DNA from: Flexivirga aerilata
GTDB lineage: Bacteria > Actinomycetota > Actinomycetes > Actinomycetales > Dermatophilaceae
Length of the DNA: 64,000 bases
Direction of reading: 5' to 3'
NCBI RefSeq assembly: GCF_013002715.1
Contig: NZ_JABENB010000001.1
Location: forward strand, 1,178,001-1,242,000
Below are positions 1 through 64,000 of the stretch, in pieces (the first letter of the stretch is position 1; every line of letters starts with the position of its first letter). The translations under genes were made by a program, and so were the position numbers. Under the pieces are notes generated by a model, which did not search any database, was not told the origin of the DNA, and saw only the letters and a program-made list of their open reading frames with translations.

Positions 1-2
1 TG

Positions 3-272
3 GCGTTCCCGACCCTCGACATGCTCGAGGAGGGCTACGAGATCTACCCGGTCATCGACGCGGTCGGCGGCGTCTCGTCGGTCACCCACGAGTCGGCGAT
101 CACTCGCATGGTCCAGGCCGGCGCGCACCCGATCACCTCGCTCGCGCTCGGCTGCGAGCTGATGCGCAACTGGGCCCGCAGCGACGCCGACCTCTACCGC
201 ACGATCATCAACGACTACTTCCGCCGCAAGCGGGAGATCGGCGAGTCCAGCGGCGACCTCTTCCGGCGGTGA
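3..272 (+). CDS. Isochorismatase-like cysteine hydrolase, C-terminal part
   Basis: The gene enters from the left edge; its reading frame is open from base 3 and only the last 89 codons are present. The visible part has the AFPTLD stretch, then GYEIYPVIDAVGG, and a downstream THESAITRMVQAGA helix. This pattern follows the catalytic cysteine in YcaC-type members of the isochorismatase superfamily, so the nucleophile should lie just outside the window. These are cytoplasmic hydrolases of small amides or esters, and the substrate cannot be inferred. The Met codon at base 21 is internal, not the start, because homology continues upstream of it. Confidence 0.75.
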   Translation, partial: AFPTLDMLEEGYEIYPVIDAVGGVSSVTHESAITRMVQAGAHPITSLALGCELMRNWARSDADLYRTIINDYFRRKREIGESSGDLFRR

Positions 273-293
273 CGGGCCGCTAGCCTGACCGTC

Positions 294-755
294 ATGTCGT
301 ATGCCGTTGACTTCCACACCGTCTCGACCGTCGGCCTGGAGTCGTCGCCGGTCACCGACGCACTCGCCGGGCTGCGAGCCAACGAGGCGCGCTACTTCAA
401 GAACAAGTACGACCACACCTTCACCGTCGAGCCGGCCGCGGACGCACAGTCGACCGTCGACTGGGTGAGCGGCATCCTCAAGGACGAACGGGACATCGTC
501 ATCGCCTCGCCGGTGCTGGAGGCGACCGAGTTCGAGGTGGACGGCATCCGCATGGCCTACCTCTTCTACGAGAGCGGCTTGTCGATCAACGTGATGTACA
601 CACTCGCCGACGGGGGCAAGCGCGCCGTCGGCTTCAAGCTGTCGGACGGAATGGACGTGCCCGAGGAACTCGGCGCGTTCAAGTTCGCGCGGCAGAAGTC
701 GAAGCTAGCCGGCACGATCCGTGGCTCCTACTTCGTGATCAAGGGCGAGCACTGA
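294..755 (+). CDS. Uncharacterised 153-residue protein
   Basis: I do not recognise this family. The protein begins MSYAVDFHTV and is soluble in character: no signal peptide, no membrane segment, balanced charge, with alternating beta-rich stretches such as IRMAYLFYESGLSINVMY. A basic patch (KFARQKSKLAG) lies close to the C-terminus. It starts 21 bases after the hydrolase stop and could share its transcript. Codon use matches the neighbours (strong G/C at third positions), which supports real coding. No function is proposed. Confidence 0.7.
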   Translation: MSYAVDFHTVSTVGLESSPVTDALAGLRANEARYFKNKYDHTFTVEPAADAQSTVDWVSGILKDERDIVIASPVLEATEFEVDGIRMAYLFYESGLSINVMYTLADGGKRAVGFKLSDGMDVPEELGAFKFARQKSKLAGTIRGSYFVIKGEH

Positions 756-803
756 GCCCGTGGTCATCGCGGCGAAGGACGTCCTCAAGAACTCTCGCGT
801 GCG

Positions 804-1299
804 ATGAGTGCGTTCGAGGTGTTGGTCGCCGACGAGCGAACCCAGCTCGATGCGTTCGTCGAGGACTACCGCGGCATGATCGAGCACACCCTGGATGGGC
901 TGACCGAGGAGCAGGTGCGCCGCCGCTTGGTGCCGTCGGCGACAACGCTGTTGGGAGTGGTCAAGCACGTGACGTGGATGCAGCGGGTGTGGTTCGAGGA
1001 GTGCATCGGCGGGGGCACCCGCGCGGCGCTCGGCCTGGTGCGGACGCCGGACCAATCCTTCCAATTGGCCGACAACGACACGATTTCCAGTGTGCTCGCC
1101 GCTCACCAGGACGCGTGTATGACGGCGCGCGCGATCGTCGCCGGCCGTGCGCTGGATGAAGTGGTGACCGGTCACCGATCCGGGCCACGCACGGTGCGCT
1201 GGGGTTTACCTCCAGGTGCTGCGTGAGCTCGCGCATCACGCGGCGCACGCCGACATCCTGCGGGAGCAGCTTCTCGCCGCCACCGATCAGGATCAGTGA
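804..1299 (+). pseudogene. DinB/DUF664-family protein, frameshifted near its 3' end
   Basis: The frame from 804 encodes a DinB-like (DUF664) four-helix protein, with LLGVVKHVTWMQRVWFEE typical of the first metal-binding helix. After about 133 codons it runs into WGLPPGAA and stops at 1226. In the +1 frame from 1207 to 1299 the expected family ending reappears: YLQVLRELAHHAAHADILRE, with the His-containing last helix. One surplus base between 1203 and 1207 explains this. With the frame restored the gene would end at 1299, seven bases into the convergent acyltransferase gene. The family includes thiol-dependent transferases and many proteins of unknown role. It may be a true pseudogene or a sequencing error in the GGGGTTT stretch. 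Confidence 0.75.
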
Positions 1300-2459
1300 C
1301 GAACGAGCCTGCGCAGCGCTGCGGTGAAGACCGTGCCGGTGGCCGCCAGGTACGTCCCGTAGAACCGGCGTATGACGGGGCGCGGCGGGCGCTCGAGCAA
1401 CATGATGAGTGCGGCGCACCCCGCCATACGGGCCGAACGCTCGGCTGCGGTGGCCGCGACGAATCTCGCTGTCGGTAGCCGGAGTTCGCCGGCCGCACGC
1501 GCGTAGACCTTGACCGGCACCCCACCGAGCGCCTGGTGCCAGATGCCGGCCGCACCGCCACGCAGGTGGTCGCGCGCGGCCGCACGCATCCTCGGGGTCG
1601 TCAGCGGCGCGGGTGGCAGGATCCCGCGCCGGGCGAGTGCGGCGGTCAGTGCCACTCCGCACACCGAGCCCGCGGCGGTCGATGCGGCGAGCACGGGAAT
1701 GCGACGAGCATCTGCGACGCCGAAGAAGACCAACGCCATCTCGGCCATGATCGGCCAACTGATCGCCTCAGCGAATCCCCACGCGAATCCGACTGCAATT
1801 GCGCGGTTTCCGTCAACGAGATGCGCAACGGCGCGCTGAGCGGGTGAGGTGGGCTGCGCCACCGGGCCTTGCCCCAGAAGGCCGATCACAGCCTCGCGGA
1901 GCTGGTCGGCATCAGTGGTCGACGGGTCCAGCCGTGCTCCAAATCGCACTTCCATCGGGGTCGTGCGGAGTCGCCCGTGCTTGGCGAGCACGTCGCCGGT
2001 GCCGAGCAGTGCCACCGGGACGATCGGCACCCCGCAGTCCTGGGCCAAGCGCACCGCTCCGGAATGAAAGCGGCCGACCGACCCGTCGGTGCTTCGGGTG
2101 CCCTCCGGGTAGATGACCACCGTGCGGCCGTCCGCCAACGGTCCGCGCGCGGCATCGAGCAGAGCGGCGTAACCGCTGCCCCCGTTCCGTCGTACGGGCA
2201 GGCCGCCGGCCAGACCTGACATCAGTGCGCGCCGCCACCAGACGTCGAACCAGTAGTCGGCAGCAGCCGCGAACAACAGGCGGTTGGCGGCCGGCACCGC
2301 GGCCAGTAGCGCAGCGGTGTCGGCGTGCGAGGCGTGATTGGCGACGATGACCTGTCCGCCCGAACACCGTTGTGGCACACCGCTGGTCGTCAACCCACCA
2401 GCCAGTGAGCAGACGGCTCGCCACAGCCCGCGCCGCAGGACGCTTGCGATCGATGACAT
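1293..2459 (-). CDS. Lysophospholipid acyltransferase (PlsC-like) fused to a membrane domain
   Basis: This 388-residue protein has an N-terminal PlsC/AGPAT domain (about residues 30-200). The NHASHAD motif provides the catalytic His and Asp, and YPEGTRS is the phosphate-binding motif. Such enzymes acylate lysophosphatidate or a related lysolipid at the membrane. From about residue 215 a second, hydrophobic region follows (GFAWGFAEAISWPIMAEMAL, then further membrane segments and a VPVKVYARAAG stretch). Stand-alone PlsC proteins of about 250 residues lack it. It is the last gene of a three-gene minus-strand operon behind CdsA and a CDP-alcohol phosphatidyltransferase, 18 bp after cdsA. The acyl-acceptor is unknown; a phospholipid role is inferred from context. 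Confidence 0.85.
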   Translation of the reverse strand: MSSIASVLRRGLWRAVCSLAGGLTTSGVPQRCSGGQVIVANHASHADTAALLAAVPAANRLLFAAAADYWFDVWWRRALMSGLAGGLPVRRNGGSGYAALLDAARGPLADGRTVVIYPEGTRSTDGSVGRFHSGAVRLAQDCGVPIVPVALLGTGDVLAKHGRLRTTPMEVRFGARLDPSTTDADQLREAVIGLLGQGPVAQPTSPAQRAVAHLVDGNRAIAVGFAWGFAEAISWPIMAEMALVFFGVADARRIPVLAASTAAGSVCGVALTAALARRGILPPAPLTTPRMRAAARDHLRGGAAGIWHQALGGVPVKVYARAAGELRLPTARFVAATAAERSARMAGCAALIMLLERPPRPVIRRFYGTYLAATGTVFTAALRRLVRH

Positions 2460-2477
2460 GAATGACTCCTCGAGTGG

Positions 2478-3398
2478 CTAGGCGAGTGCGACGGCGGCCA
2501 GGGGCAGGACGAGCAGGAGAGAGTCGATGCGGTCCAGCAGACCGCCGAAGCCGGGCAACCATTCCCCGGCGTCCTTCACTCCGGCCTGCCGCTTGAACAT
2601 CGACTCCAACAGGTCGCCCAACACACCACCGAATGCGACTGCGAGCAGCAGGCCAGGTGTGATGGTGCCGAGCAGGGTCAGCACGATGAACGCGCCGATG
2701 ACGGCGCCCGCGAGCCCGCCGACGGTCTTGTTGGGGCTGAGCGGGGAGAGCGGACGACGCGCCCAGCCGAAGCGACGAAATCCCTTGCCGCCGCACCACG
2801 CCGCGACGTCGGTGGCCGCGGCGGCGAAGCAGACCAGGAAGGCGTCACGCCAGATGAGCACCATGCTGGCGAGCGACCAGCAGATCCAGATCGAGCCGAA
2901 TCCGGTGAATGCGGCCCGCCAAATGCCGTGTTCCAGATCCCCGGTCAGCACGGACGGCAGAGCGCACAACAACACGATGAGCGGCACCAGGTGCAGCAGG
3001 CCCGGTCGCAACCATGCGGCGAGTGGGTAGGCGACCGCCAGGACGTAGAGGATCGCCGTGTCCGCTCGGGGGAGCTGCACCAGCCGGACGTACTCCCGCA
3101 CGGCGATCAGCGCCAGCACCGCGCAGAGCACCGCCGTCGGTCCCTTGCCGATCCAGATCGGGATGCCCACGACCGGCAGGATCAGCACCCAGGTCACCCA
3201 CTTGGTGACCAATTCCCTCTTGCGAGAGGCGAATACGGCAATCCCGGCGACGGCCAGGATGCTGAGTGTGACCCAGAAGAAGAACACGCCCCGGCCGGTG
3301 ATGTGCAGGTGCACGAACCAGATGTCGACGTCGAGCCGCATCGAGCGACGGTCGAGGTGCAGCACCCGCAGGTAGGTGTCGACCAGCCAGTTGTTCAC
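2478..3398 (-). CDS. cdsA: Phosphatidate cytidylyltransferase (CDP-diacylglycerol synthase)
   Basis: The protein makes CDP-diacylglycerol from phosphatidic acid and CTP in the cytoplasmic membrane. It is about 306 residues long with several hydrophobic segments. It ends with the CdsA signature SMFKRQAGVKDAGEWLPG followed by GGLLDRIDS, which carries the expected K-R, K-D and D-R-I-D residues. The position usually occupied by His in this signature is Phe. I chose the GTG at 3398 because it overlaps the stop of the upstream gene as GTGA, indicating translational coupling; the open frame further upstream lies inside that gene. It is probably an accessory copy belonging to this cassette, since housekeeping cdsA usually sits near frr/pyrH. 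Confidence 0.88.
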   Translation of the reverse strand: MNNWLVDTYLRVLHLDRRSMRLDVDIWFVHLHITGRGVFFFWVTLSILAVAGIAVFASRKRELVTKWVTWVLILPVVGIPIWIGKGPTAVLCAVLALIAVREYVRLVQLPRADTAILYVLAVAYPLAAWLRPGLLHLVPLIVLLCALPSVLTGDLEHGIWRAAFTGFGSIWICWSLASMVLIWRDAFLVCFAAAATDVAAWCGGKGFRRFGWARRPLSPLSPNKTVGGLAGAVIGAFIVLTLLGTITPGLLLAVAFGGVLGDLLESMFKRQAGVKDAGEWLPGFGGLLDRIDSLLLVLPLAAVALA

Positions 3399-4000
3399 CC
3401 GGTCACCCGCTCGATCAGCTCCCGGTGTGCGCCGAGCAGTCGAAGCGTCGCGGTGAGCAGAGAGCCGACGATGATGACGCCGCACACCCACCCGATCAGC
3501 GCTGGGAACGCGGTGGCGACAACCATGGCCAGGCACCGCTCGGTCTTGCCGAACGGACCGCCGTTGCGCCGCGTCGCACCGGCGCCGGCGCCGGCCAGGG
3601 AGGCAGTCGTGGGCAGGGTCGCGGCGACGGCGGCGGTTACAGTGAGCAGCGCGGACCAGCTGGGGAGGCCGTCGGTGCGGGCGGCCAGCGCGAAGAGCCC
3701 GGCGAAGACGATGAGATCCGAGACGCGGTCGCCGATCTCGTTGAGCACGAAGCCCCATGGCCGGCTGACACCTCGAGCCCGCGCGACCGCGCCGTCGAGA
3801 TTGGCTCCGCCGAGGCGTGCCGCGAGCATCAGCAGTGCGGGCAGCCACCAGCCCATCGCGATGCAGATCGCGGCGAGCACGGCGCCGGCGACGCCGAGCA
3901 GGGTGAAGACGTCCGGCGAGATGCCTCGGTCAACCGCGAATTGCACTATCCGACCCAGGCGCCTGCTGTACCACGGCTTCAGTGCGTAGAGCCCTTGCAC
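3395..4000 (-). CDS. CDP-alcohol phosphatidyltransferase family protein
   Basis: This 201-residue integral membrane enzyme is likely to transfer a phosphatidyl group from CDP-diacylglycerol to an alcohol. The family motif is recognisable but altered. LDGAVARARG gives the DG-x2-AR part, and GFVLNEIGDRVSD gives G-x3-N-x3-D-x3-D, with Asn where the third Asp usually stands. The first Asp of D-x2-DG is missing. Hydrophobic helices flank the motif. The GTG start has a strong Shine-Dalgarno (AGGAGG) just upstream, making this the first gene of the operon. CdsA and PlsC downstream suggest a dedicated phospholipid pathway; the alcohol (glycerol phosphate, inositol phosphate or other) cannot be told. 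Confidence 0.8.
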   Translation of the reverse strand: MQGLYALKPWYSRRLGRIVQFAVDRGISPDVFTLLGVAGAVLAAICIAMGWWLPALLMLAARLGGANLDGAVARARGVSRPWGFVLNEIGDRVSDLIVFAGLFALAARTDGLPSWSALLTVTAAVAATLPTTASLAGAGAGATRRNGGPFGKTERCLAMVVATAFPALIGWVCGVIIVGSLLTATLRLLGAHRELIERVTG

Positions 4001-4083
4001 CGCCCCTCCTTGCGTCGCTTGGTCGCATACTGCCGGTTCCGACGTGGTGACGCGCGGAAGCGTTGCGTACCCGTCGTCTCGCT

Positions 4084-4503
4084 CTAGGTGGAGCCGGGTT
4101 CGCCGGTGCTCCCGGATATGAGGTCGATGGCAGTGATGATGTCGGGCAGGGACTCCGGGTGTGCGAGCTGCAGGTGGGCGAGCTCATCCGGCCGGCACCA
4201 GCGCAGGTCGTCGTGCTCGCCGGGCGCCAGGTTGGCTGGCTCACCGTCCCATCGGGTGACCACGAAGCCGTCTGTCGTCAGGTGCGGTGCGTGCACCGTC
4301 AGCGGCACCGGACGAGGATCGCGAACGTGAATGCCCAGCTCTTCCAGGCATTCCCGGACGACCGCATCGCGGGAGGACTCGCCGGGTTCGACGTGTCCGC
4401 CGGGGAGTGCCCACCGGTCGGGGTAGGCCTCGCGCGCCGGGTGGCGGTGTGTCATGAGCACACGATCATTGCGGACGAGCACCGCGGTCGCGTTCAGGAT
4501 CAT
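4084..4503 (-). CDS. Nudix hydrolase
   Basis: The 139-residue protein carries a complete Nudix box (GHVEPGESSRDAVVRECLEE then LGI), matching G-x5-E-x7-R-E-x2-E-E-x-G. It therefore hydrolyses a nucleoside diphosphate linked to another moiety, with Mg2+ on the Glu residues. HRHPAREAYPDRWALPGG just before the box is typical of ADP-ribose/8-oxo-dGTP-like members. The ATG at 4503 was chosen because the protein begins with the expected MILNATAVLVRNDRVLM strand; the open frame upstream of it is the HNH gene read out of frame. It starts 7 bases after the HNH gene stop, so the two are probably co-transcribed. Substrate unknown. Confidence 0.85.
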   Translation of the reverse strand: MILNATAVLVRNDRVLMTHRHPAREAYPDRWALPGGHVEPGESSRDAVVRECLEELGIHVRDPRPVPLTVHAPHLTTDGFVVTRWDGEPANLAPGEHDDLRWCRPDELAHLQLAHPESLPDIITAIDLISGSTGEPGST

Positions 4504-4510
4504 GCCGGGA

Positions 4511-5863
4511 TCAGGCCGCCGTGTGCGCGTGGCCGGGCATGCGGCCGGGGGTGAGATCCCAGGTGACGCCGTCGGGACGGACGTGTGCCATGAACCCGTG
4601 TCGGTGGACTTCCTGATGATGTCGGCAGCACAGGATGGCCGAGTTGGTGAGGCTGGTTTCGCCGCCGGCCCACCAGGGTCTGACGTGATGGACTTCGCAG
4701 AAACCTGGCGGTCGATCACAGCCGGGGAAGGTGCACCCGCCATCGCGTATGACGACGGCCGCGCGTAAACCCTTGGTGACCAGGCGTTCTCGCCGGCCCA
4801 CATCCATCGGTTGGCTGGGTCCGCCGAGGACCGCGGGGATCAGGTCCGCGTCACAGGCGGCGCGGCGGGCGGCTCCGGCATCGAGCACGTCACCGCCCGG
4901 GGTGGTCGCCCCGCCGAGCCCGTCGGTCAGCGACGTGAGGTCCATGGTCAGCAGGATTGTCGCCGCGGAGCCGACGGGCGCCACGTCACCGGCGGCAACC
5001 TTCGCGCCCGCAGCCACAAGCTCCATCAACGCATCCGCGCGGCGTTTGCCCGGAGGGCGTTCATCGCGCGCGGTTTCGCTGCGGCCACCCTCGGTGTCGA
5101 CGGTGGCTGGTCGTGGTGCGGACCCGGCGGTGATCGCCGCCTTGAGCACCGCGGCATTCGCGGGTGCGAGCTCGGCCACGAGCCGGGTCATCCCGGTAGC
5201 GGTCGTGCCCCAGGTGAGGGTTTCGACCTGTTCGAGTTTCGCGTCCTGCACGGAGAGTGCTTCGGTGGCGTAGGTCGCCAGGATCTTCCGGGTCAATGCC
5301 TGCACGCCCTTTGCCCCGAGTGCCGGGTCCAGTTGCAGGAACCAGGCCAGCACCTCGCCCCGGTCGGCGGTCGGGATCACCGGCGCCACCTTGTCCGCAT
5401 TGGTCAACGCCGCCCGCGCGGTCGACACCGTGCACGGCCCTCGTGCGACCGCTTCGGCGATGACGTCGCTCTTACGCTCCCGGCACGCCTCGGCCACCAC
5501 CGCGATCGACTTCGCCTCGACCGGTTCGATGGGCACCCCGGATGCTTCGGCGTGACGGCATACCCACTGGGTGGTGTTCGCCGCCGTCGAGCCCGCGACC
5601 GCCCCACGCTCGACCGCGTCAGCGGTGACCACCGCGGCAATCTGCGCCGACCGCCCGTGCAACCGCAACAGCACCTGGGTCAGTGACTCCACCTGTCCGT
5701 CGCCGAGCTGGTGCACCACCTCCGGCACCTCATCCAGCAACGCGGCAAGCTCCCGCACTCGCTCCAGCACGGTCGGGCCACGCCCCGGCTCAGCGGGCGC
5801 GCGCAGAGCGCTATCCGACAACCCCGGACGCTCCGGCAGCGGCACAGCAGAATCGAGAGACAT
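4511..5863 (-). CDS. DUF222 / 13E12-type HNH endonuclease-domain protein
   Basis: The protein (450 residues) has the long N-terminal DUF222 region of the actinobacterial 13E12 repeat family. Its C-terminal HNH nuclease fold reads RDGGCTFPGCDRPPGFCEVH, then HVRPWWAGGETSLTNSAILC and CRHHQEVHRHG. The two Cys pairs form the structural zinc site and the H-H pair the catalytic core. Genes of this kind occur in many copies in actinobacteria and are often mobile or damage-inducible; their biological role is not settled. A possible SOS-box-like palindrome lies about 70 bases upstream. A Nudix gene follows directly. Confidence 0.88.
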   Translation of the reverse strand: MSLDSAVPLPERPGLSDSALRAPAEPGRGPTVLERVRELAALLDEVPEVVHQLGDGQVESLTQVLLRLHGRSAQIAAVVTADAVERGAVAGSTAANTTQWVCRHAEASGVPIEPVEAKSIAVVAEACRERKSDVIAEAVARGPCTVSTARAALTNADKVAPVIPTADRGEVLAWFLQLDPALGAKGVQALTRKILATYATEALSVQDAKLEQVETLTWGTTATGMTRLVAELAPANAAVLKAAITAGSAPRPATVDTEGGRSETARDERPPGKRRADALMELVAAGAKVAAGDVAPVGSAATILLTMDLTSLTDGLGGATTPGGDVLDAGAARRAACDADLIPAVLGGPSQPMDVGRRERLVTKGLRAAVVIRDGGCTFPGCDRPPGFCEVHHVRPWWAGGETSLTNSAILCCRHHQEVHRHGFMAHVRPDGVTWDLTPGRMPGHAHTAA

Positions 5864-5929
5864 GGGTCTGAATCTCCTTCCGCCGCAATGCGTTTCGTCG
5901 TGTGATCAGGATACCTCCGACTGCTGACA

Positions 5930-5945
5930 ATGTACATATGTTCGA
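5930..5945 (-). promoter_or_regulatory. Possible LexA (SOS) box upstream of the HNH gene
   Basis: Read on the minus strand the site is TCGAACATATGTACAT. It matches the CGAAC-N4-GTTCG type of LexA operator at 8 of 10 fixed positions; one half is perfect and the other imperfect. It sits 67-82 bases upstream of the HNH gene start. Several mycobacterial 13E12-family genes are known to be SOS-induced, which makes the placement sensible, but the match alone is weak evidence. Confidence 0.35.
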
Positions 5946-6083
5946 GGAAATTCGGCACTGCGATCCGCGTGCCTCGCACCACCTGGGATTGGCCGCCGAC
6001 GGGGGCTCGCGACACACGCCCGAGCCGTGTCGCGCGTGGCTCGACAAATTGTTCAGCCGTCCGGGAATGATCCGACCCATCCC

Positions 6084-6110
6084 AAAGTTGAGTCTAGTAA
6101 GCGCAACTTT
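6084..6110 (+). promoter_or_regulatory. HAIR operator 1 (HspR site) upstream of dnaK
   Basis: AAAGTTGAGT, seven bases, then GCGCAACTTT. This is the same architecture as the perfect HAIR box at clpB (AAAGTTGAGT-N7-ACTCAACTTT), with two changes in the right arm. HspR, encoded at the end of this operon, is the known ligand of HAIR elements. The 386 bases between the HNH start (5863) and dnaK (6250) hold no convincing gene. They hold this site, a TTGACA at 6122-6127 that may be the -35 box, a second HAIR-like site and the dnaK ribosome-binding site. Confidence 0.8.
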
Positions 6111-6143
6111 TGCCGAGGGGTTTGACAAGCCGCCGAGACAAGA

Positions 6144-6164
6144 GTTGAGTCGGATGCAGTCAAC
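6144..6164 (+). promoter_or_regulatory. HAIR operator 2 (HspR site) at the dnaK promoter
   Basis: GTTGAGT, seven bases, then AGTCAAC: six of seven right-arm positions fit the HAIR consensus. It begins 17 bases after a TTGACA hexamer and so would overlap the -10 region, an effective place for repression. Together with the site at 6084 it makes a paired operator about 33 bases apart. Confidence 0.7.
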
Positions 6165-6249
6165 CTCGCGAGGGCGACGGGGGGCGTACCGGCGAAGCGA
6201 CATCCGGCATACGAAGACCGAAAATCGAGAACCAAGGGAGAACATCGAT

Positions 6250-8148
<1,899 letters not shown>

Positions 8149-8206
8149 TCACCCCACAAAGCTCTCCGCTCGTTCCTCGCTCCGATGCTTTGCGGGGGCC
8201 CCGATC
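8149..8206 (+). repeat. Stop-to-start hairpin element between dnaK and grpE
   Basis: The 58 bases fill exactly the gap between the dnaK stop and the grpE ATG. Arms CCCCACAAAGC (8152-8162) and GCTTTGCGGGG (8187-8197) pair with one G-U-type mismatch, and GGCCCC follows. The same layout occurs three times in tandem at 43350-43536 with a different but still paired arm (CCCCACGAAGT/ACTTCGCGGGG), so the stem is conserved by compensatory change. It leaves grpE without a recognisable Shine-Dalgarno. It may tune grpE translation or mRNA stability. Confidence 0.8.
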
Positions 8207-8851
8207 ATGACCGACCCCACCCAGGGTCCCCGTCCGGGCTCCTCTGCGGAGGAGCCCGGCGGGCGGCGCCCCGAGGAAGAAGAGCCCACCGGGCCGGTGA
8301 TCCGCGACAAGCGACGCATCGACGAGAACGGCGAGCTCCGCGAATCCCCCTCGGACGCACCGCAACCCGAGGCCGCCGGCAGCGATGCCGGCGCCCCGGG
8401 CGCGGCCGGGGGAGAGCACCCGGACACCGTCCTCGCGGCCGAGCGACTCGCCGACCTGCAGCGGTTGCAGGCCGAATACGTCAACTACAAGCGACGTGTC
8501 GACCGGGACCGTGAGGCCAACAAGGACGCCGCGACCGCCCGCGTGGTCGAGGGCATCCTGCCGGTGCTCGACGACATCTACCTGTCCCGCCAGCACGGCG
8601 ATCTCGAGGGCTCGCCCTTCGAGAAGATCGCCGACAAGCTGCAGGCCGCGCTGACCCGGCTCGGACTTGCACCGTTCGGCGAGGTCGGCGAGGCCTTCGA
8701 TCCGGCCGAGCACGAGGCGCTCATGCACATCGAGGCCGAGGTGCCGGAAGGTTCCGAGGGCACCACGATCGTCCAGGTCATGCAGCCGGGCTACCGGCTG
8801 GGTGAGCGCATCATCCGTCCCGCACGCGTTGCCGTCGCGGATCCGTCCTGA
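8207..8851 (+). CDS. grpE: Nucleotide exchange factor GrpE
   Basis: The 214-residue protein releases ADP from DnaK. The N-terminal 70 residues are acidic and disordered. A coiled-coil with LQRLQAEYVNYKRRVDRDRE follows. The C-terminal beta domain carries the GrpE signature, FDPAEHEALMHIEAE then VVQ-like VQVMQPGYRLGERIIRPARV. The ATG at 8207 directly abuts the hairpin repeat, and no ribosome-binding site is visible. Translation may depend on coupling to dnaK, 58 bases upstream, or on the repeat structure itself. It is second in the HspR operon. Confidence 0.95.
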   Translation: MTDPTQGPRPGSSAEEPGGRRPEEEEPTGPVIRDKRRIDENGELRESPSDAPQPEAAGSDAGAPGAAGGEHPDTVLAAERLADLQRLQAEYVNYKRRVDRDREANKDAATARVVEGILPVLDDIYLSRQHGDLEGSPFEKIADKLQAALTRLGLAPFGEVGEAFDPAEHEALMHIEAEVPEGSEGTTIVQVMQPGYRLGERIIRPARVAVADPS

Positions 8852-8860
8852 GGCAGCCCA

Positions 8861-8918: not shown

Positions 8919-8937
8919 TTCATGAAGGAGCGATTGC

Positions 8938-55068: not shown

Positions 55069-55103
55069 GGCCGACCGAGCCGCCCGCGAACAGGCTTGTC
55101 GGC

Positions 55104-56840: not shown

Positions 56841-56857
56841 CCCCACCCCCACCGAAA

Positions 56858-56928
56858 GGCCCACATCCGCTTCGAGCGGCACACCAGATCACCCCGATCT
56901 GGTGTGCCGCTCGAAGCCGTTGTGGGCC
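56858..56928. terminator. Terminator hairpin after the DUF2339 gene, member of the covarying family
   Basis: A perfect 22-base stem (56869-56890 with 56896-56917, five-base loop) is enclosed by GGCCCAC (56858-56864) and GTGGGCC (56922-56928). The inner sequence GGCACACCAGATCACC corresponds base for base to GGTACAGCAAAATCACC of the hairpin after clpB, with paired changes on the other arm. Confidence 0.88.
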
Positions 56929-56962
56929 GGTCGGTCTTGTCAGGCGGTTTATAAAGCACTAC

Positions 56963-56979
56963 TTTCACATATCGTGAAA
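56963..56979. promoter_or_regulatory. Palindrome overlapping the MFS start codon
   Basis: TTTCAC, five bases, GTGAAA. The right arm contains the GTG start codon of the MFS gene. A TATAAA hexamer at 56950 could be its -10 box, giving a leader of only about a dozen bases. A repressor bound here would block initiation of transcription directly. Confidence 0.5.
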
Positions 56980-58182
56980 CATTCGTTTCAAAACTCCGTA
57001 TGGCGACATCGCGACGTCCGCATCGTCGTGCCGGCACGGGCCGTCTCCTTCGTCGGTGACGGGATGCTCGCCGTGGTGCTGCTGTTGCGGTTGCACGACG
57101 GCGGCGCCGGCCCGTGGGCGGTGACCGGCCTGCTGATCGCGACCTCCCTGCCGCTGGTCGTGCTCATCGGACCCGCCGGCCGAGCGGCCGACCGGTGGGA
57201 CTCGCGGACCGTACTCGCGGTGGCGCTGGGTGCCCAGGCGCTCGCCTGTCTCGCGCTCGTGCCGACCACGTCGGTGGCCGGCACCTATGCGCTGGTCGCG
57301 GCGGTCCAGACCGGGCAGGCGTTCGCGGGGCCGACGTGGAGCGCGCTGGTGCCACGGATCGTCAGCGCCGCCGACGACGTTGGCCGCATGGTCGCGCTGC
57401 AGCAGGGGCTCGCCCAGGCCTTGCTGCCGGTGGGCGCGGCGCTCGGCGGCGTCGTCTACGGCCTGGCGGGCGCGCAGGTGGCGATCCTGGTGGACGCCGG
57501 GACGTTCGGCGCGCTCCTGCTGGGCGCGCTCGCGGTCCGCACCAGGCGCGGCGGCCGAGCCGACAGCACTCTCACCGGGCACCCGGCGATCCGGCGCGCG
57601 GGCCTGGTGACGTTACGCGCCGATCCGGTCGTCTGGCCGCTGCTGCTCGGCTCGCTCTTCATGGTGTTGCTGCTCGCCGGGGTCAACGTGGTCGAGGTGT
57701 TCCTGGTCCGTGACGAGCTCGGCATGTCGGCGGCGTGGTACGGCGTCAGCGAGCTGATGGTCATGGTCGGGGCACTGTGCGGCTCCGTGCTGGCCGGGCG
57801 GGTGGACGGCGACAGAGCGCGGGTGAGCACGACGATCGGCGGGTTCGGCGCGATCGCGCTGCTCGTCGTGGTCTGCGGCGTGACGCCGTGGTTCCCGCTC
57901 CTGCTGGTCTGCTCGGTCGGCCTGGGAGTCGCGAGTGCGGCGATGAGCGCGTGTTTCGGCGCGCTGCTCGTGATCCGGTCTCCGGACGCGGTGCGCGGTC
58001 GGATGTCGGCGACGGTCAACGGGCTCATGCAACTGGCGAACGTCGGGTCGCTGCTGATCTTCGGTGCCTTGGGTACGACGCTCGGTGTGCGCCATACCTT
58101 CGTCGCGGCGGCTGCCGTTGCGCTGCTGGTCGCGTTGCGGTTGCGGGCGGTGGCGCCGCAGCCGGAGCTCAGCGGTCGGTGA
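56974..58182 (+). CDS. MFS transporter (efflux type)
   Basis: The 402-residue protein has twelve hydrophobic segments with motif A-like GPAGRAADRWDSRTVL after TM2 and a second-half IRSPDAVRGRMSATVNGLMQ. This is the pattern of MFS_3/enterobactin-exporter-like efflux proteins (EntS/MdfA-like). The GTG at 56974 gives VKHSFQNSVWRHRDVRIVVP before TM1, and no Shine-Dalgarno is visible, so translation may be near-leaderless. The start overlaps a TTTCAC-N5-GTGAAA palindrome. The 3' end overlaps the convergent DedA gene by 14 bases. Substrate unknown. Confidence 0.82.
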   Translation: MKHSFQNSVWRHRDVRIVVPARAVSFVGDGMLAVVLLLRLHDGGAGPWAVTGLLIATSLPLVVLIGPAGRAADRWDSRTVLAVALGAQALACLALVPTTSVAGTYALVAAVQTGQAFAGPTWSALVPRIVSAADDVGRMVALQQGLAQALLPVGAALGGVVYGLAGAQVAILVDAGTFGALLLGALAVRTRRGGRADSTLTGHPAIRRAGLVTLRADPVVWPLLLGSLFMVLLLAGVNVVEVFLVRDELGMSAAWYGVSELMVMVGALCGSVLAGRVDGDRARVSTTIGGFGAIALLVVVCGVTPWFPLLLVCSVGLGVASAAMSACFGALLVIRSPDAVRGRMSATVNGLMQLANVGSLLIFGALGTTLGVRHTFVAAAAVALLVALRLRAVAPQPELSGR

Positions 58183-58849
58183 GGTCCTTCGCGGCCTCGA
58201 CGGTCTCGTCGGCCATCGCCTTCGCCTCGCGGCGGTGCTTGAGGAACTCGTAGATCATCGGCAGCACCGAGACCACCACGACGACCATGATCGCCAGGTC
58301 GATCTTGTCGCCGAGGCCCGGGAACGCCCTGCCGAGCAGCACGCCGGCAAACACGATGATCGCGACCCACAGCACCGCGCCGACCGCGCTCCAGATGAAG
58401 AACCGCTTGCGGTCCATCCGGCTGGCACCGGCGACCAGCGTGATGAAGGTGCGCACGATCGGCACGAAGCGGCCGATCACCAGGGCCTTGTTGCCGTGCT
58501 TGTCGAAGAAGGCGCTGGTCTGCTCGAAGTACTTCTTCTTGAGGATCCGCCCGTCGCGCTCGTAGATCGGCTTGCCGACGGCCCGGCCGATCTCGTAGCC
58601 GACGACGTTGCCGGCGAACGCGGCGATCATCAGCGACGGCACCGAGACCCAGAGCGGGACGTGGAAGTTGTACTTGGCGCTGGAGCTGAACAGGCCGATC
58701 GCGAACAGCAGCGAGTCGCCGGGAAGGATCGGGAAGAGCACGCCGCACTCGATGAAGACGATCAGCAGCGAGACGAAGAAGAAGGCACCCCCGAACTGGT
58801 CGAGCAGATATTGCGGGTCCATGAAGCTCGGGCCGAGGGAGTGCATCAC
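58169..58849 (-). CDS. DedA-family (VTT domain) membrane protein
   Basis: The 226-residue protein has an FIECGVLFPILPGDSLLFAI stretch, carrying the conserved E and P-G-D/E of DedA proteins. YEIGRAVGKPI and the signature FVPIVRTFITLVAGASRM (the G-RF-x-P-x-x-R-x-F part, with GRF immediately before) follow. Such proteins are undecaprenyl-phosphate or phospholipid flippases in several bacteria. The C-terminus is basic then acidic (HRREAKAMADETVEAAKDLT). Monocistronic, convergent with the MFS gene. Confidence 0.92.
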   Translation of the reverse strand: MMHSLGPSFMDPQYLLDQFGGAFFFVSLLIVFIECGVLFPILPGDSLLFAIGLFSSSAKYNFHVPLWVSVPSLMIAAFAGNVVGYEIGRAVGKPIYERDGRILKKKYFEQTSAFFDKHGNKALVIGRFVPIVRTFITLVAGASRMDRKRFFIWSAVGAVLWVAIIVFAGVLLGRAFPGLGDKIDLAIMVVVVVSVLPMIYEFLKHRREAKAMADETVEAAKDLTDR

Positions 58850-58996
58850 AGCGCCAAGGGTACGGGAGCCGCGCTGAGGGAACGCTTAGAGAAAACCGGC
58901 CCGGCGGCGGGGCGGCGAACCGCTCCCCGCGACAGCACCGCCGATCCGGCATGATCAGGACCGTTCCTGTCCGTTGCCCGGTGGAGGGTTGTCGAC

Positions 58997-59944
58997 ATGG
59001 CGGAAACCACGGCGCGGCTGCTGCACCTGCTCGGGCTGCTCCAGGCGAAGGCGGTCTGGACCGGCCCCGAGCTCGCCGAGCGGCTCGGCGTCACGACCCG
59101 CTCGGTCCGGCGCGACATGGAGCGGCTGCGCGAGCTCGGCTATCCCGTGCAGGCCAGCCGGGGCCTCGGCGGCGGCTACCAGCTCGGCGCAGGGCGGGCA
59201 CTGCCGCCGTTGCTGCTCGACCAGGACGAGGCGGTGGCGGTCGCGGTCTGCCTGCGGCTGGCCGCCGGCGGCACGGTCGCCGGGGTCGGCGAAGCGGCGA
59301 TCCGCACCATGACCAAGCTCGACCAGGTGATGCCCGCGAGCATCCGGGCTCAGGTCGCCGCGGTGCAGGAGGCGACCGTGACCGTCGAATATCAGGCGGC
59401 CACGGTCGACGCGGACGACCTGCTGGTGCTCGCCCGCGCGATCCGGGAGACCCACCAGGCGCGTTTCGACTACGTCGCGCGGACCGGTGCGGCGACCTCC
59501 CGGCGCATCGAGCCCTACCGGCTGGTCGCCACCGGACGCCGTTGGTATCTCATGGCTTTCGACCTCGACCGGGACGACTGGCGGTCGTTCCGGCTGGACC
59601 GGATGACCGAGGTGCGCGCCTCGACGTTCGGCTTCACCCCGCGCGCGGCGCCGGACGCCGAGGAGTTCATCCGCCGGTCGGTGCATTCCGGCTGGGACCA
59701 GGAGGCCACCCTGCGCCTGCGCTGCGCCGCCGACGAGGTGCGCGACCACGTCGGCGGCTGGGGCCGGCTGACGCCGGTCGACGAGCACAGCTGCGAGCTG
59801 CGGGTGGGCAGCCACGACGTCGAGCTGATGGCGTGGTGGCTGCTGCGGCTGCCGGTCGACTTCGAGGTGCTCGACAACGAGGAGCTGGTGGCGGCATACG
59901 GCCGGATCGCGCAGCGCGTCGACCGGTTGACGGCCGGCCGCTGA
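58997..59944 (+). CDS. WYL-domain transcriptional regulator
   Basis: The 315-residue protein has a DeoR-like HTH_11 domain at the N-terminus (LLQAKAVWTGPELAERLGVT, then TRSVRRDMERLRELGYPVQA). The WYL domain (RIEPYRLVATGRRWYLMAFD, FRLDRMTEVRAS) carries the R-x-Y-x-L-V and W-Y-L elements, and a WCX C-terminal extension follows (HSGWDQEATLRLRCAADEV). WYL regulators bind nucleic-acid or nucleotide ligands and often control DNA repair or defence genes. A GGTGGAGGG ribosome site precedes the ATG. It precedes the broken gene at 60 kb. Confidence 0.92.
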   Translation: MAETTARLLHLLGLLQAKAVWTGPELAERLGVTTRSVRRDMERLRELGYPVQASRGLGGGYQLGAGRALPPLLLDQDEAVAVAVCLRLAAGGTVAGVGEAAIRTMTKLDQVMPASIRAQVAAVQEATVTVEYQAATVDADDLLVLARAIRETHQARFDYVARTGAATSRRIEPYRLVATGRRWYLMAFDLDRDDWRSFRLDRMTEVRASTFGFTPRAAPDAEEFIRRSVHSGWDQEATLRLRCAADEVRDHVGGWGRLTPVDEHSCELRVGSHDVELMAWWLLRLPVDFEVLDNEELVAAYGRIAQRVDRLTAGR

Positions 59945-59980
59945 GCGGAGGTTCTTGCGGGCGCGACGGGCTTCTGCAAA

Positions 59981-61063
59981 TTGCCGGTGGCGAGCACGCC
60001 GCGGCTCCATCATGTGCCCACGGTGTGGCCGGTGGCCGGGCGCTCCGGGAATCTGCCGCGGGGCCCGAAGCGACCAGAGAACGAGTGGACGCGGGTGGAG
60101 GACCTTCGCTCCTGTGCGGGCTGGCTCGCCTGGTCCCGCCGGATGGCCTCACCCTTCGGTGCGCTCTCGGCGGCGCTCCTCGAACCGGTGCTCGAGGAGC
60201 GTGGCATCGGGCTGAAGGGTTACGACCTCACCGGCTCGAGCGTGGCACCGGCAGCCACACCTTGGAGGTGGTGGGTGCCTACGAACGGCTCCTCGACCTG
60301 CCGTATGGCGAACTCCAGGCGCCCATCCTGTCGCTGGCACGGGTCGTCGACCCGTCGGCGCGGGCGGGCGACTTCCAGCCGGTGGTCGTGCCGCCGGCGG
60401 AGGCGACCGAGTGCGTCGACGGGCTCTACGAACGCTGGGAGAAGGGTGGCGAATTCACCGGTGCCGAGTGGTTGCGACTGGCCCACATCGTAGGCCCGCC
60501 GACCCATCATCCGGTGCCGATCGGCTTGCTGCGCAAGTGGCTTCGCCAATTGATATCGGAGTTGATGCGCAGTGTCCAGCTTGCCTACTTCCCGCGGGAT
60601 GAGGCGGCGTCGGCATTTGCGGCATTCGACCGGACGGCACCGCTGGTCGTGGCTGCGGTGCTCGAACTCACCGCAACACCAGGCGTTTCCGGCGCGGCCT
60701 CCGCGGCCGCTAGTGCGGGCCGCGATCACGGTCGCTGCCGGGTCCGACGTCGAACCCCAGACGCGCATCAACGCCCACTATCTGATCGAGCGACTCGCCG
60801 GCGCCGGCGAGGAGGCCGTGCTGAAGAGGGAGCTGCGCGAGCCGCACCGGGTCGACCTGCGGCGGGTGTGTCTCATCGCGCTGGCGCACGCCGGGCTGGT
60901 GCGCCCCGAGGACGATCTGCGCGGTCTGCTCGCCGTCCCCGAACTGCGGGACACGGTCGTCTACGCGCTCGGCATCAGCGGCCACCCGCAGCTGTCACTG
61001 CCGGAGGCCGACGGCGACGATGCCCGATGGTGGCGCGCCAACGGTGGAGGCTTCTTCGCCTGA
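59981..61063 (+). pseudogene. Broken gene with two compensating frameshifts, unknown HEAT-like protein
   Basis: Plausible protein sequence runs in one frame to about 60235 (CAGWLAWSRRMASPFGALSA, LEERGIGLKGYDLTGS). It switches to the -1 frame up to about 60710 (LEVVGAYERLLDLPYGELQA, PVVVPPAEATECVDGLYERW, SVQLAYFPRDEAASAFAAFD). It then returns to the first frame to 61063 (LVRAAITVAAGSDVEPQTRI, RRVCLIALAHAGLVRPEDDL, DARWWRANGGGFFA). The last part looks like HEAT-type helical repeats. No homologue is recognised. The two shifts cancel, so either the gene decayed or the assembly has two errors. The N-terminus is uncertain. Confidence 0.6.
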
Positions 61064-61072
61064 TGCGGGCGC

Positions 61073-61714
61073 GTGGCACAGTTGCTGCCCGTGCAGGAGG
61101 AGATCGGAGTCGGCCCGTGGCCCGGGGAGTGGCCGACCACACCGGATGGCAGCCCCGATCCGAGGTATGACGAGGCATTGCTCGCCGACGGCGACCGGCG
61201 CAACGTCGAGGACCGCTATCGCTACTGGACGCAGGACGCGATCGTCGCCGACCTCGACCGGCACCGGCACGATTTCCACATCGCCGTCGAGAACTGGGGT
61301 CACGACTTCAACATCGGATCGGTGATTCGCACCGCGAATGCCTTCAATGCCAAGGCTTTCCACATCGTCGGCAAACGCCGGTGGAACCGCCGCGGCGCGA
61401 TGGTCACCGACCGCTACCAGCACGAGTTCCATCACCCGGACGTCGCGTCGCTGCGGGAGTGGGCCGGCGGCATACCCCTGATCGGCATCGACAACGTGCC
61501 CGGGAGCACACCGATCGAGACCTACGAGCTGCCGCGGGAATGTGTGCTGGTCTTCGGCCAGGAGGGCCCGGGTCTCAGCGCCCAGATGCAGGAGGCGTGC
61601 GTCGACATCCTCCACATCGAGCAGTTCGGCTCGACCCGGTCGATCAATGCCGGTGCCGCGGCGGCGATCGCCATGCACATGTGGATCCTGCGGCACGTGC
61701 ACGGCGTGGGTTAG
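61073..61714 (+). CDS. TrmH/SpoU-family RNA methyltransferase
   Basis: The 213-residue SPOUT methyltransferase has motif 1 HDFNIGSVIRTANAFNA (catalytic Arg), motif 2 CVLVFGQEGPGLS and motif 3 IEQFGSTRSINAGAAAAIAM, which form the AdoMet-binding trefoil knot. The family 2'-O-methylates tRNA or rRNA; actinobacterial members of this length are usually annotated as TrmH-like. The GTG at 61073 gives an N-terminal extension of about 60 residues; a GTG 18 bases later is an alternative start. Followed by the ECF42-type promoter. Confidence 0.88.
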   Translation: MAQLLPVQEEIGVGPWPGEWPTTPDGSPDPRYDEALLADGDRRNVEDRYRYWTQDAIVADLDRHRHDFHIAVENWGHDFNIGSVIRTANAFNAKAFHIVGKRRWNRRGAMVTDRYQHEFHHPDVASLREWAGGIPLIGIDNVPGSTPIETYELPRECVLVFGQEGPGLSAQMQEACVDILHIEQFGSTRSINAGAAAAIAMHMWILRHVHGVG

Positions 61715-61732
61715 CACCTTTTTCGCCGGACC

Positions 61733-61759
61733 TGTCGATTGCGGGGCCTCCCGCACGTC
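61733..61759 (+). promoter_or_regulatory. ECF42-type promoter upstream of the DGPF genes
   Basis: TGTCGA (61733-61738), a 17-base spacer, CGTC (61756-61759). The ECF42 consensus I recall is TGTCGA at -35 and CGA/TC at -10. Transcription would begin near 61766, about 50 bases before the first DGPF gene. The encoded sigma factor is the last gene of the same operon, so positive autoregulation is expected. Confidence 0.75.
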
Positions 61760-61816
61760 ATCGTGCTGTCAGAAGAAGTCAACGGGCACGAAACGACGCA
61801 TGACGAGAGGTCATCG

Positions 61817-62173
61817 ATGAGCACGCGATTCCTGGTGTTGCTGCCGGCTCCGGAGGCGGAGTGGGCGAAGCTGCCGCCGGAGGAACACGAGAAGGGGCAG
61901 CGCGCCCACGAGCGGTTCCACAAGGAGTTGGCCGAGGGCGGGCACATCATCCTTGTCGCCGGTCCGTTGCAGCCGTCCGCGCAGGCGCTGTCGATGCGGC
62001 CCGACGGGCACGGCGGGACGACCGTCACCGACGGGCCCTTCACCGAGTCCGTCGAGCAGATCGTCGGGTTCTACCTGATCGAGAGCGACGACCGGGACGG
62101 CGTGATCGCCTGCTGCGAGCAGCTGTCCAGCACCGGTGACCTCATCGAACTGCGCGAGATGCAAGGAGAGTAG
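61817..62173 (+). CDS. DGPF/YCII-family protein 1
   Basis: The 118-residue ferredoxin-like protein has FLVLLPAPEAEWAKLPPEEH and the family hallmark TVTDGPFTESVEQIVGFYLI. DGPF (YCII-related) proteins are the constant genomic companions of ECF42 sigma factors; their biochemical role is unknown. The ATG at 61817 follows GAGAGG. It has the canonical DGPF tetrapeptide, while the next two paralogs have EGPY and DGPY. First gene of a four-gene operon ending in the sigma factor. Confidence 0.9.
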   Translation: MSTRFLVLLPAPEAEWAKLPPEEHEKGQRAHERFHKELAEGGHIILVAGPLQPSAQALSMRPDGHGGTTVTDGPFTESVEQIVGFYLIESDDRDGVIACCEQLSSTGDLIELREMQGE

Positions 62174-62175
62174 AG

Positions 62176-62538
62176 ATGACCGAATACATGATCGTGATCC
62201 TCGGCGACGCCGACCGATGGTGGACGACGATGACGCCGGAGGAACGCAAGCACGGTTACGCCGAATACGGGCGGTTCGCAAAGGAACTCACCGCGCGCGG
62301 CCACCGCATCACCGGGGGAGCGGAGCTGCACGCCAGCGACGAGACCAAGCGCATCGCGCCGGGCAGCGACACCGTCACCGAGGGTCCGTATGCCGAGGCC
62401 GTCGAACAGGTCGGTGGCTTCTACCTCGTCGAGACCGACGACGTCGACGACGTGCTCGACTGCTGCAAGATCATCACCGCGCTCGGTGACGGCGTCGAGC
62501 TGCGCCGCACGGTGACCCAGCAGGAGCGGGCGTCATGA
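62176..62538 (+). CDS. DGPF/YCII-family protein 2
   Basis: The 120-residue paralog of the preceding gene product reads YMIVILGDADRWWTTMTPEE, then TVTEGPYAEAVEQVGGFYLV, with EGPY in place of DGPF. The gene starts two bases after the first paralog's stop, with AAGGAGAG overlapping that stop region as ribosome site. Its stop overlaps the third paralog's ATG. It differs enough from the others (for example ADRWWTTM) to have a separate partner or ligand. Confidence 0.9.
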   Translation: MTEYMIVILGDADRWWTTMTPEERKHGYAEYGRFAKELTARGHRITGGAELHASDETKRIAPGSDTVTEGPYAEAVEQVGGFYLVETDDVDDVLDCCKIITALGDGVELRRTVTQQERAS

Positions 62539-62885
62539 CGAAGTATCTCGTGCTGCTGGCCGGTCGCGAGGGCGAGTGGGAGGCCGCCACCGACGAGCAG
62601 CGCGCGGGCTGGCACCGCGACCATCTCGACTTCGGGCGGGTCGTCGGCGACGACATCCTCGGCGGCGAGGCGCTCGCCGGCACCGACACCGCGACGACCG
62701 TGCGACGGCGCAGCGGGAAGACCGAGCTGACCGACGGCCCGTATGCCGAGACCGCCGAACAGATCGGCGGGTTCTACCTGGTGCAGGCGCCCGATCTGGA
62801 CCAGGTGCTCGCCTGGTGTGAGCTGCTGCCGGAGATCTACACCCTCGAGGTGCGCCCCTGCATCGAGGTCGACCTGTCCGCATGA
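62535..62885 (+). CDS. DGPF/YCII-family protein 3
   Basis: The 116-residue third paralog reads TKYLVLLAGREGEWEAATDE, then ELTDGPYAETAEQIGGFYLV. It overlaps the second paralog by ATGA at its start and the sigma-factor gene by ATGA at its end, so its translation is directly coupled to that of the sigma factor. This arrangement favours a functional link between this copy and the sigma factor. Confidence 0.9.
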   Translation: MTKYLVLLAGREGEWEAATDEQRAGWHRDHLDFGRVVGDDILGGEALAGTDTATTVRRRSGKTELTDGPYAETAEQIGGFYLVQAPDLDQVLAWCELLPEIYTLEVRPCIEVDLSA

Positions 62886-64000
62886 CCACGCTCGAGCAGG
62901 TATGGCGCGACGAGTGGGGCCGGCTGCTGGCCCTGCTCGTCCGCCGGACCCGGCGGCTGGACCTGGCCGAGGACGCGCTCGCCGAGGCATTCGAGACCGC
63001 TGCCCGGCGCTGGCCGCAGGACGGCATCCCCGACAATCCCGCCGCCTGGCTGCTGACCGCGGCTCGGCGGCGGGTGCTGGACCGGCTGCGTGCCGAGGCG
63101 GTCGCGGCCCGCAAGCAGCCCCTGCTCGCGATGGAGGAGGACTCCCGGATGCGGCACCGCACGACGCCGGACGACGACCTGCTCCGCCTGGTGCTGCTCG
63201 CCGCTCATCCGTCGCTGTCGCCGGAGTCGGGCGCCGCCCTCACCCTGCGGCTGGTGCTCGGCGTGCAGACCGCCGACATCGCGCGGCTCTTCCTGGTCGG
63301 CGAGGCGACCATGGCGGCCCGGCTCACCCGCGCCCGCAAGAAGGTCGTCGCCGCGGGCGTGCCGCTCGCCATACCCGGTGACGACGTGCTGGCCGACCGG
63401 CTCGACACGGTCGCGAAGGTCGCCTATCTGGCCTTCACCGCCGGCTACGCGCCCGGCAGCGGGCCGGATGTCGTGCGTGCCGAGCTCGCCGGCGAGGCGA
63501 TCCGGCTGGTGGGACTCTTGCGGTCGAACAACCCTGCCGCACAAGCAAATCCGTCATTGATCGCGCTGGAGGCGTTGATGCTGCTGCAGCATTCCCGCCG
63601 CGACGCGCGGGTCGACGGCAGTGGCCGGATCGTGCTGCTGCCGGACCAGGACCGCACGCGCTGGCACCGCGCCGAGATCGACGAGGGTATGGCGCTGCTG
63701 CAGTCGCTCACCGGAGGCGGTGCGGCGCGGCTGTCGAGCGCGCTCGCCGCGGACTACCTGCTGCAGGCCCTGATCGCCGCCGAGCACGCGCGCGCGGCCC
63801 GGGCGCAGGACACCGACTGGGTGGTGATCAGCGACTTCTACCGGCAACTGGACGACCTCACCGGCTCACCGGTGGTGCGGCTCAACCGGGCGGTCGCCGT
63901 CGCCGAGGCGGGGGACGTCCCGGCCGCGTTCGCCCTGCTCGACGGGCTGGAGGACTCCCTCGGGCGGACGCACCGGTTGCCCGCGGTCCGGGCGGAGCTG
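62882..64000 (+). CDS. ECF42-type RNA polymerase sigma factor with C-terminal extension (runs off the window)
   Basis: The frame opens with ATG at 62882 (MTTLEQVWRDEWGRLLALLV) and remains open to the window edge, 373 codons. Sigma region 2 contains LDLAEDALAEAFETAARRWP and NPAAWLLTAARRRVLDRLRA. Region 4 contains LTLRLVLGVQTADIARLFLV and GEATMAARLTRARKK. A long C-terminal extension with TPR-like helices follows (IRLVGLLRSNN, LIALEALMLLQHSRRDARVD, VVRLNRAVAVAEAGDVPAAF). This architecture plus upstream DGPF genes defines the ECF42 group, which lacks an anti-sigma factor. The last approximately 30 residues are missing. Confidence 0.92.
   Translation, partial: MTTLEQVWRDEWGRLLALLVRRTRRLDLAEDALAEAFETAARRWPQDGIPDNPAAWLLTAARRRVLDRLRAEAVAARKQPLLAMEEDSRMRHRTTPDDDLLRLVLLAAHPSLSPESGAALTLRLVLGVQTADIARLFLVGEATMAARLTRARKKVVAAGVPLAIPGDDVLADRLDTVAKVAYLAFTAGYAPGSGPDVVRAELAGEAIRLVGLLRSNNPAAQANPSLIALEALMLLQHSRRDARVDGSGRIVLLPDQDRTRWHRAEIDEGMALLQSLTGGGAARLSSALAADYLLQALIAAEHARAARAQDTDWVVISDFYRQLDDLTGSPVVRLNRAVAVAEAGDVPAAFALLDGLEDSLGRTHRLPAVRAEL

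Follow-up and report, generated by a model that had tools for sequence, protein, structure and literature searches.

In the Pasteurellaceae, uptake signal sequences (USS) occur about once per kb, and Chi and the FtsK-orienting polar sequences (KOPS) are over-represented short asymmetric words. Highly iterated words of bacteria are known to be Chi-type words, uptake sequences, or highly iterated palindrome (HIP) words (PMC4390886). The DNA uptake sequences (DUS) of the Neisseriaceae come in dialects that are fixed per species and have a core in common (PMC3630211), and single-mismatch forms of both DUS and USS are over-represented, falling with mismatch load (PMC1939737). Among actinobacteria, Micrococcus luteus transforms with the aid of comEA, comEC, and Tad/Flp pili (PMC6370729). 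Here, we analyzed a 64,000-nucleotide stretch of the Flexivirga aerilata genome (contig NZ_JABENB010000001.1, positions 1,178,001 to 1,242,000; hereafter, the window) along with its genome and relatives, and found that the octamer GTATGNCG is enriched as a DNA-level signal. With modest confidence, we incline to read it as a DNA-uptake-type 'self' watermark with genus dialects.

The comparison with the described systems showed both likenesses and differences. As with DUS, for which the minor pilin ComP is the reader, GTATGNCG is found in thousands of copies on both strands and is species-fixed, and its dialects have a core in common and are one or two bases apart outside it (PMC3630211). However, it has 8 bases, of which 7 are specified, while the DUS quoted in PMC6370729 has 10, and its carriers are Gram-positive actinomycetes, with Flexivirga lacking PilM-type pili and offering candidate receptors. 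The likeness to the Pasteurellaceae USS lies in a short non-palindromic word used on both strands; here, the phylum is another one, and the involvement of uptake is putative. Flexivirga resembles M. luteus in having comEA, comEC, and a Tad locus, but the available portion of the M. luteus paper mentions no uptake word for that organism (PMC6370729).

The whole genome of 4.0 Mb in 6 contigs contains 5,019 copies of this short asymmetric word, 2,555 on the + strand and 2,464 on the − strand, and the same word read backwards, our control, is present 853 times. In the window, 98 GTATG words were counted on both strands, with 96 continuing as GTATGNC (48 on each strand), and the next base was G in 92 of these, i.e., GTATGNCG, with 46 copies on + and 46 on −. 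The first-pass annotation of this DNA had described GTATGNC as the near-exclusive context of GTATG, mostly followed by G, with more than 80 words divided roughly equally between the strands and two exceptions; all of this agrees with our counts, but its spacing of about 750 bases has to be replaced by a measured mean of 653 bases. The three copies that it had placed between genes were also intergenic in our gene prediction, a heuristic based on GC3.

To obtain expectations, null models were run on 13 stretches adding up to 304 kb, i.e., the window and 12 of the 17 other stretches of this genome; L016, L017, L018, L019, and L022 (G and L numbers are our handles for genomes and stretches of DNA), which were word-poor, short, or all N, were omitted. 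Within 240 kb of predicted genes, GTATGNCG was observed 326 times, against 36.1 ± 4.9 copies (maximum 46) in 40 codon-preserving shuffles. The third-order Markov expectation was 6.3 when the word sites were masked and 48.8 when they were not. The pattern, therefore, withstood the shuffle and Markov comparison that the first-pass annotation had put forward as its decisive challenge. The enrichment was found in all three frames and both orientations, ranging from 4.9 to 19.5-fold, as anticipated by the remark that every reading frame is used, and the density was 1.61 copies per kb outside predicted genes and 1.36 within. The proposal that coding sequence is bent to fit the word also held, as 47 of the 74 ATA codons and 130 of the 343 TAT codons in the sampled genes of this genome lay inside it. 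The free base N was C in 129, A in 94, G in 75, and T in 28 copies. These data indicate that the enrichment is a DNA-level signal. It is, thus, highly improbable that the word has no function and is made common by codon bias, nucleotide context, or a mutation hotspot. Among the 8-mers of these GC-rich genomes, many others show moderate deviations under the same nulls, as such an explanation would have it, but for GTATGNCG both kinds of null fail by large factors, and neither the equal density outside predicted genes nor the mirror-image word use of Flexivirga and Luteipulveratus described below is expected under a shared bias. As a separate observation, TGCGA/TCGCA and their extensions were markedly under-represented in the stretches of this genome (654 against 1,152 expected).

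The excess of GTATGNCG was nearly all-or-none, with a sharp fall beyond the full word. Single-mismatch words were hardly enriched, which differs from DUS: their total was 467 against 398 expected, near background, and the only forms clearly above it were GGATGNCG (145 against 84) and CTATGNCG (30 against 8). Moreover, the copies were spaced more evenly than at random, with a coefficient of variation of 0.797 against 0.982 ± 0.048 in simulations, none of 500 being as low. The strands were balanced not only in the window but also in the 12 other core stretches, where the ratios fell between 11/17 and 18/15, and in the genome total, so that the earlier argument against a KOPS-type polar signal stands. 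A recombination word of the Chi type, or some other word linked to replication such as KOPS, is, in consequence, very unlikely; Chi sites do belong to the highly iterated short words (PMC4390886), but these words differ from GTATGNCG in the strand polarity that it lacks.

Next, we looked at the conservation of the word between species. The DnaK encoded in the window has Flexivirga meconopsidis as its closest named relative (98% protein identity), and the congener G004, presumably F. meconopsidis, given identical word counts, was 86% identical to the window over 53 kb. In G004, the word was kept at 59 of 77 gapless aligned sites of the window's genome, against a fraction of 0.461 at 323 sites of permuted words. 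Similar results were obtained with G002 (17 of 44 sites against 0.292 of 185), G003 (24 of 46 against 0.258 of 194), and G001 (17 of 31 against 0.306 of 134), showing that the word sites are retained above permuted words in all four congeners. In addition, stretches with mobile-element genes were word-poor, with more copies at their chromosomal edges. Stretch L022 contained 3 copies in its first 14.5 kb, where a TrwC relaxase and a D12 methyltransferase are encoded, whereas the 5.5 kb that follow contained 7; in L017, the first 16.4 kb, with an integrase-like gene, had 1 copy and the remaining 3.6 kb had 4; and L259, in which a resolvase is present, had 3 copies in 20 kb. Apart from these, stretch L016, with 7 copies in 20 kb, was also word-poor. 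Two further features were seen in the stretches with mobile-element genes: a protein with a DprA domain (PF02481) is encoded at L022:3613-4659, in the same stretch as the TrwC relaxase, and a second Tad-type cluster lies in L259:1-20000 (G000:C1:2497001-2517000), the word-poor stretch with the resolvase.

The distribution of GTATGNCG among relatives was assessed with a carrier threshold of our own, a density of 0.3 copies per kb or more combined with a count no less than 3 times the backward control. The family of the window is labelled f1 by the tool used, and Flexivirga belongs to the Dermacoccaceae in the NCBI taxonomy. All five Flexivirga genomes carry the word, with 5,019 to 8,019 copies. 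Carriers amounted to 19 of 36 f1 genomes and to none of 22 genomes from other families of the same order. A class-wide draw of 246 genomes put 3 of 5 f1 genomes and 0 of 241 others at or above 0.3 copies per kb; a few genomes outside f1, mostly of f45, showed a modest ratio of word to control at very low density (e.g., G158, 124 against 24). Among 41 named genomes, strong signals came from F. meconopsidis, Metallococcus carri, Knoellia remsis, and the metagenome-assembled genome of L034. Ornithinimicrobium laminariae, O. sediminis, UBA4719, and Phycicoccus Soil748 gave weaker ones, and Luteipulveratus, Janibacter terrae, and others stood near the control level. This patchiness bears on the idea that the octamer is the binding site of a hypothetical chromosome-organizing protein, a nucleoid or segregation factor, whose regular sites are selected and whose specificity drifts between genera. 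Such a protein would account equally well for the even spacing, the sites on either strand, their retention across species, and their rarity in mobile DNA. However, 17 of the 36 family genomes fall below the thresholds; part of them have another dialect, and in others no word was found. Such gaps are unexpected for an architectural site that cells cannot do without, and we regard this explanation as unlikely.

Dialects were searched for with a blind 8-mer scan against codon and Markov nulls, followed by direct tests of given words. The cleanest result was a mirror image within the Dermacoccaceae. Luteipulveratus had 119 copies of GTACGNCG against a codon null of 45.5, and only 4 of GTATGNCG against 4.1; in Allobranchiibius, the values were 177 against 53.9 for GTACGNCG and 10 against 8.6 for GTATGNCG. 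In Flexivirga, with its 326 copies of GTATGNCG, GTACGNCG was depleted (33 against a codon null of 98.8). Both mirror words stood at or above the null in each frame, with 1.59 to 2.35 copies per kb outside predicted genes. Luteipulveratus gave nothing in the blind scan and was recognized only by the direct test of GTACGNCG. A third word, GGATGCCG, was found in Microbacterium W1N (118 against a codon null of 23.9) and in the f1 member G030 (54 against 9.7). In an order-wide draw of 248 genomes, a density of 0.3 copies per kb or more was seen for 16 of the 17 members of family f19, which would be the Microbacteriaceae, as well as for 1 of 19 f1 genomes and for 0 of 212 others (19 and 212 were counted by eye). 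The maximum in f19 was 4,831 copies against a control of 248, and the sole f1 genome, G005, had counts equal to those of Nostocoides sp. Soil756 (G074). Collectively, the genus dialects GTATGNCG, GTATGCCG, GTACGNCG, and GGATGCCG are related words with a shared core, fixed by lineage, and the comparison with related genera suggested by the first-pass annotation showed that other genera carry GTACGNCG or GGATGCCG in place of GTATGNCG.

The sites at which one dialect could be seen to replace another were too few: of 3 gapless sites in Allobranchiibius, 1 carried GTACGNCG, and of 4 in Luteipulveratus, 2 did. A DnaK tree with dialect labels, in which Luteipulveratus was unlabelled, serves for orientation; on it, the GTATGNCG group required 3 changes, a figure for which label shuffles have no power (500 of 500 were as low). 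The 8-mer scans against nulls gave no clear word in Cellulomonas, Arsenicicoccus, G014, G018, G023, and G028; Phycicoccus Soil748 showed a small excess of GTATGNCG (12 against 2.5) and no clear word. Other, weaker words exceeded the codon null in further genera, with no claim that they belong to the same system: CGACGNCG in Nesterenkonia (L086, L133-L137; 500 against a codon null of 266) and in Arthrobacter UM1 (272 against 206), CGAGGNCG in Schaalia (86 against 39), and CGAAGGGG, strongly over-represented, in several frames of Janibacter genes (L032, L035, L037, L040, L116-L119; 91 against 15.2). The Janibacter word may be a distant dialect or something else. UBA4719 (L041) has CTAGGTTTG-type words in a run of 10 to 11, where 0.1 would be expected; this is probably a local repeat.

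A word that is exchanged for others in some relatives is also a trait of cyanobacterial HIP1 and its alternates, which are highly iterated 8-base words (PMC4390886), and for HIP1 it has been proposed that the word is generated and maintained by a DNA methyltransferase together with a linked bias in mismatch repair. The HIP words are comparably frequent, are replaced in some genomes, and are tied to methyltransferases (PMC4390886); the genome of the window has one PF00145 match, one PF02384 match, and a D12-type methyltransferase (PF02086), and a conversion process would be in keeping with the near lack of single-mismatch forms. Nevertheless, HIP words are palindromic and go with methyltransferases for the same word (PMC4390886), unlike the asymmetric GTATGNCG. 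Within a survey of PF01555, PF00145, and PF02384, which left aside PF02086 and other families, matches were present in 19, 22, and 25 of 35 genomes, respectively, and the word-rich G011 (4,835 copies) and G176 (2,408 copies), both drafts, lacked all three. We, therefore, consider a process of this kind quite improbable, and the modification enzyme offered by the first-pass annotation is, provisionally, disfavored. Its suggestion of a nucleoid protein keeps the low standing given above, and that of an uptake-like signal is the one that fits best, because the word is found in both orientations, is evenly spaced, is scarce in stretches with mobile-element genes, and is organized in mutually exclusive genus dialects.

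Genes for competence and uptake were found in the window's genome. ComEA, with SLBB and HHH_3 domains, adjoins ComEC, and a Tad locus beside prfB encodes TadA, TadB, TadC, an Flp-like peptide, TadE, and TadF-like and TadG-like proteins. The matches of the latter two were under the Pfam cut-off, the Flp-like peptide had no Pfam match, and the neighbors ftsE, ftsX, and smpB were named by reading translations. In the relatives, ComEA and ComEC matches occurred together in 9 of 9 comEC stretches, and TadE was beside prfB in 6 of 10 tad stretches, from genomes with and without the word alike; relatives of the TadF-like protein were present in 8 of 9 tad stretches and those of the TadG-like protein in 6 of 9. 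These genes, however, do not discriminate. ComEC was detected in 71 of 73 genomes and TadE in 72 of 73, including genomes without the word, and because both are near-universal, the presence of the uptake machinery is uninformative on the word; either gene was discarded as a predictor for want of power. PilM_2, a marker of type IVa pili, was found in 13 of 73 genomes and in 0 of 5 Flexivirga; its carriers include G029 (GTATGNCG at 0.26 per kb) and, by a partial match, the GGATGCCG-bearing Microbacterium W1N (G091). The type IVa pilus was, thus, rejected as the carrier in the five Flexivirga genomes, a rejection that does not extend to every dialect (G029, G091).

Under the uptake reading, the octamer would be preferred by the receptor with which competent cells bind free DNA; the most likely candidates for this receptor are a Tad minor pilin (TadE or the TadF-like or TadG-like protein encoded beside prfB) and ComEA. 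ComEC would pass one strand inward, and homologous recombination would install it. Biased uptake together with recombination would raise the word in all recombining DNA, whatever the frame or strand, until it reached about 1.3 per kb, and a receptor preference shifting between genera would give rise to the dialects. Several observations weigh against this reading. The case rests on genomes, from which we infer uptake as the driving force, DNA binding, the competence of the cells, and the identity of the reading protein. The near-universal ComEC and TadE do not predict the word, and in Allobranchiibius, within the 18 kb examined, no TadA, TadB, or TadC match accompanied Flp-TadE. Furthermore, window DNA unaligned to the three distant congeners had 1.50 copies per kb against 1.40 in aligned DNA, and the 8,051 window bases aligned to none of the four congeners hold 8 copies. 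Finally, GTATGNCG is short for an uptake sequence, and its single-mismatch excess is weak, unlike that of DUS and USS (PMC1939737).

The coordinates of the word in the window are collected in Table 1. The window also contains a chaperone region (5902-22974) with DnaK, DnaJ, a MerR-type regulator, and ClpB, named by reading translations; its DnaK served to anchor the comparison with relatives.

Table 1. Positions in the 64-kb window of GTATG words and of selected copies of the octamer.
Feature	Position	Strand	Basis
GTATGNC set, n = 96 (92 are GTATGNCG)	299..63693	both	full listing of GTATG with context
GTATGNC, first base	299, 1117, 1370, 4747, 7217, 9411, 11041, 11801, 13043, 16653, 17326, 17925, 21351, 23137, 24531, 24699, 25002, 26773, 28043, 28691, 29363, 29984, 31309, 32339, 32571, 33926, 34025, 34884, 35989, 36200, 37826, 39290, 40585, 41191, 43818, 44806, 47192, 48144, 51740, 53188, 56432, 56998, 60303, 61165, 62388, 62741, 62900, 63687	+	
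GTATGNC, first base of CATAC in + coordinates	1425, 5559, 6208, 6608, 9365, 10043, 11215, 13731, 13946, 16165, 17595, 18533, 19305, 19489, 20305, 22787, 23510, 23629, 24140, 25226, 25996, 26869, 29200, 30843, 32248, 33850, 35173, 35596, 36918, 38106, 39622, 40610, 41024, 42069, 44182, 45199, 46231, 47446, 50623, 50885, 51601, 53253, 55628, 56572, 58093, 59895, 61471, 63370	−	
GTATG without NC after it (exception)	4026..4030	−	listing with context
GTATG without NC after it (exception)	20109..20113	−	listing with context
Word copy, intergenic	31309..31316	+	gene prediction
Word copy, intergenic	37826..37833	+	gene prediction
Word copy, intergenic	50882..50889	−	gene prediction
Closest pair in the window, two facing copies 25 bases apart within a predicted gene	40585..40614	both	

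In the openly licensed PubMed Central literature, to the extent of the portions available and with preprints not covered, we found no report of GTATGNCG or of an actinobacterial uptake sequence, and sequence-specific DNA uptake is described there for the Neisseriaceae and Pasteurellaceae only. We give an even chance to the broader proposal of a DUS-type system with genus dialects in Gram-positive Actinomycetota (Dermacoccaceae, Intrasporangiaceae, Ornithinimicrobiaceae, Microbacteriaceae, and perhaps Micrococcaceae), whose words, alike in their ending around GNCG and switching at positions 2 and 4, would be read by a Tad minor pilin or ComEA. Such a system would add a third code of self-recognition in transformation, with an evolutionary origin of its own. 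Should uptake not be responsible, many genomes contain an 8-base word, spaced about 800 bases apart, that is read by some other factor, and this calls for explanation no less. If uptake is the cause, self-selective transformation would have arisen again in the Actinomycetota, in another phylum and probably with another pilus type. Natural competence would then be predicted in many actinomycetes without known competence, the octamer would be worth adding when non-pathogenic members are transformed, and the genetic isolation between genera would be readable from their genomes.

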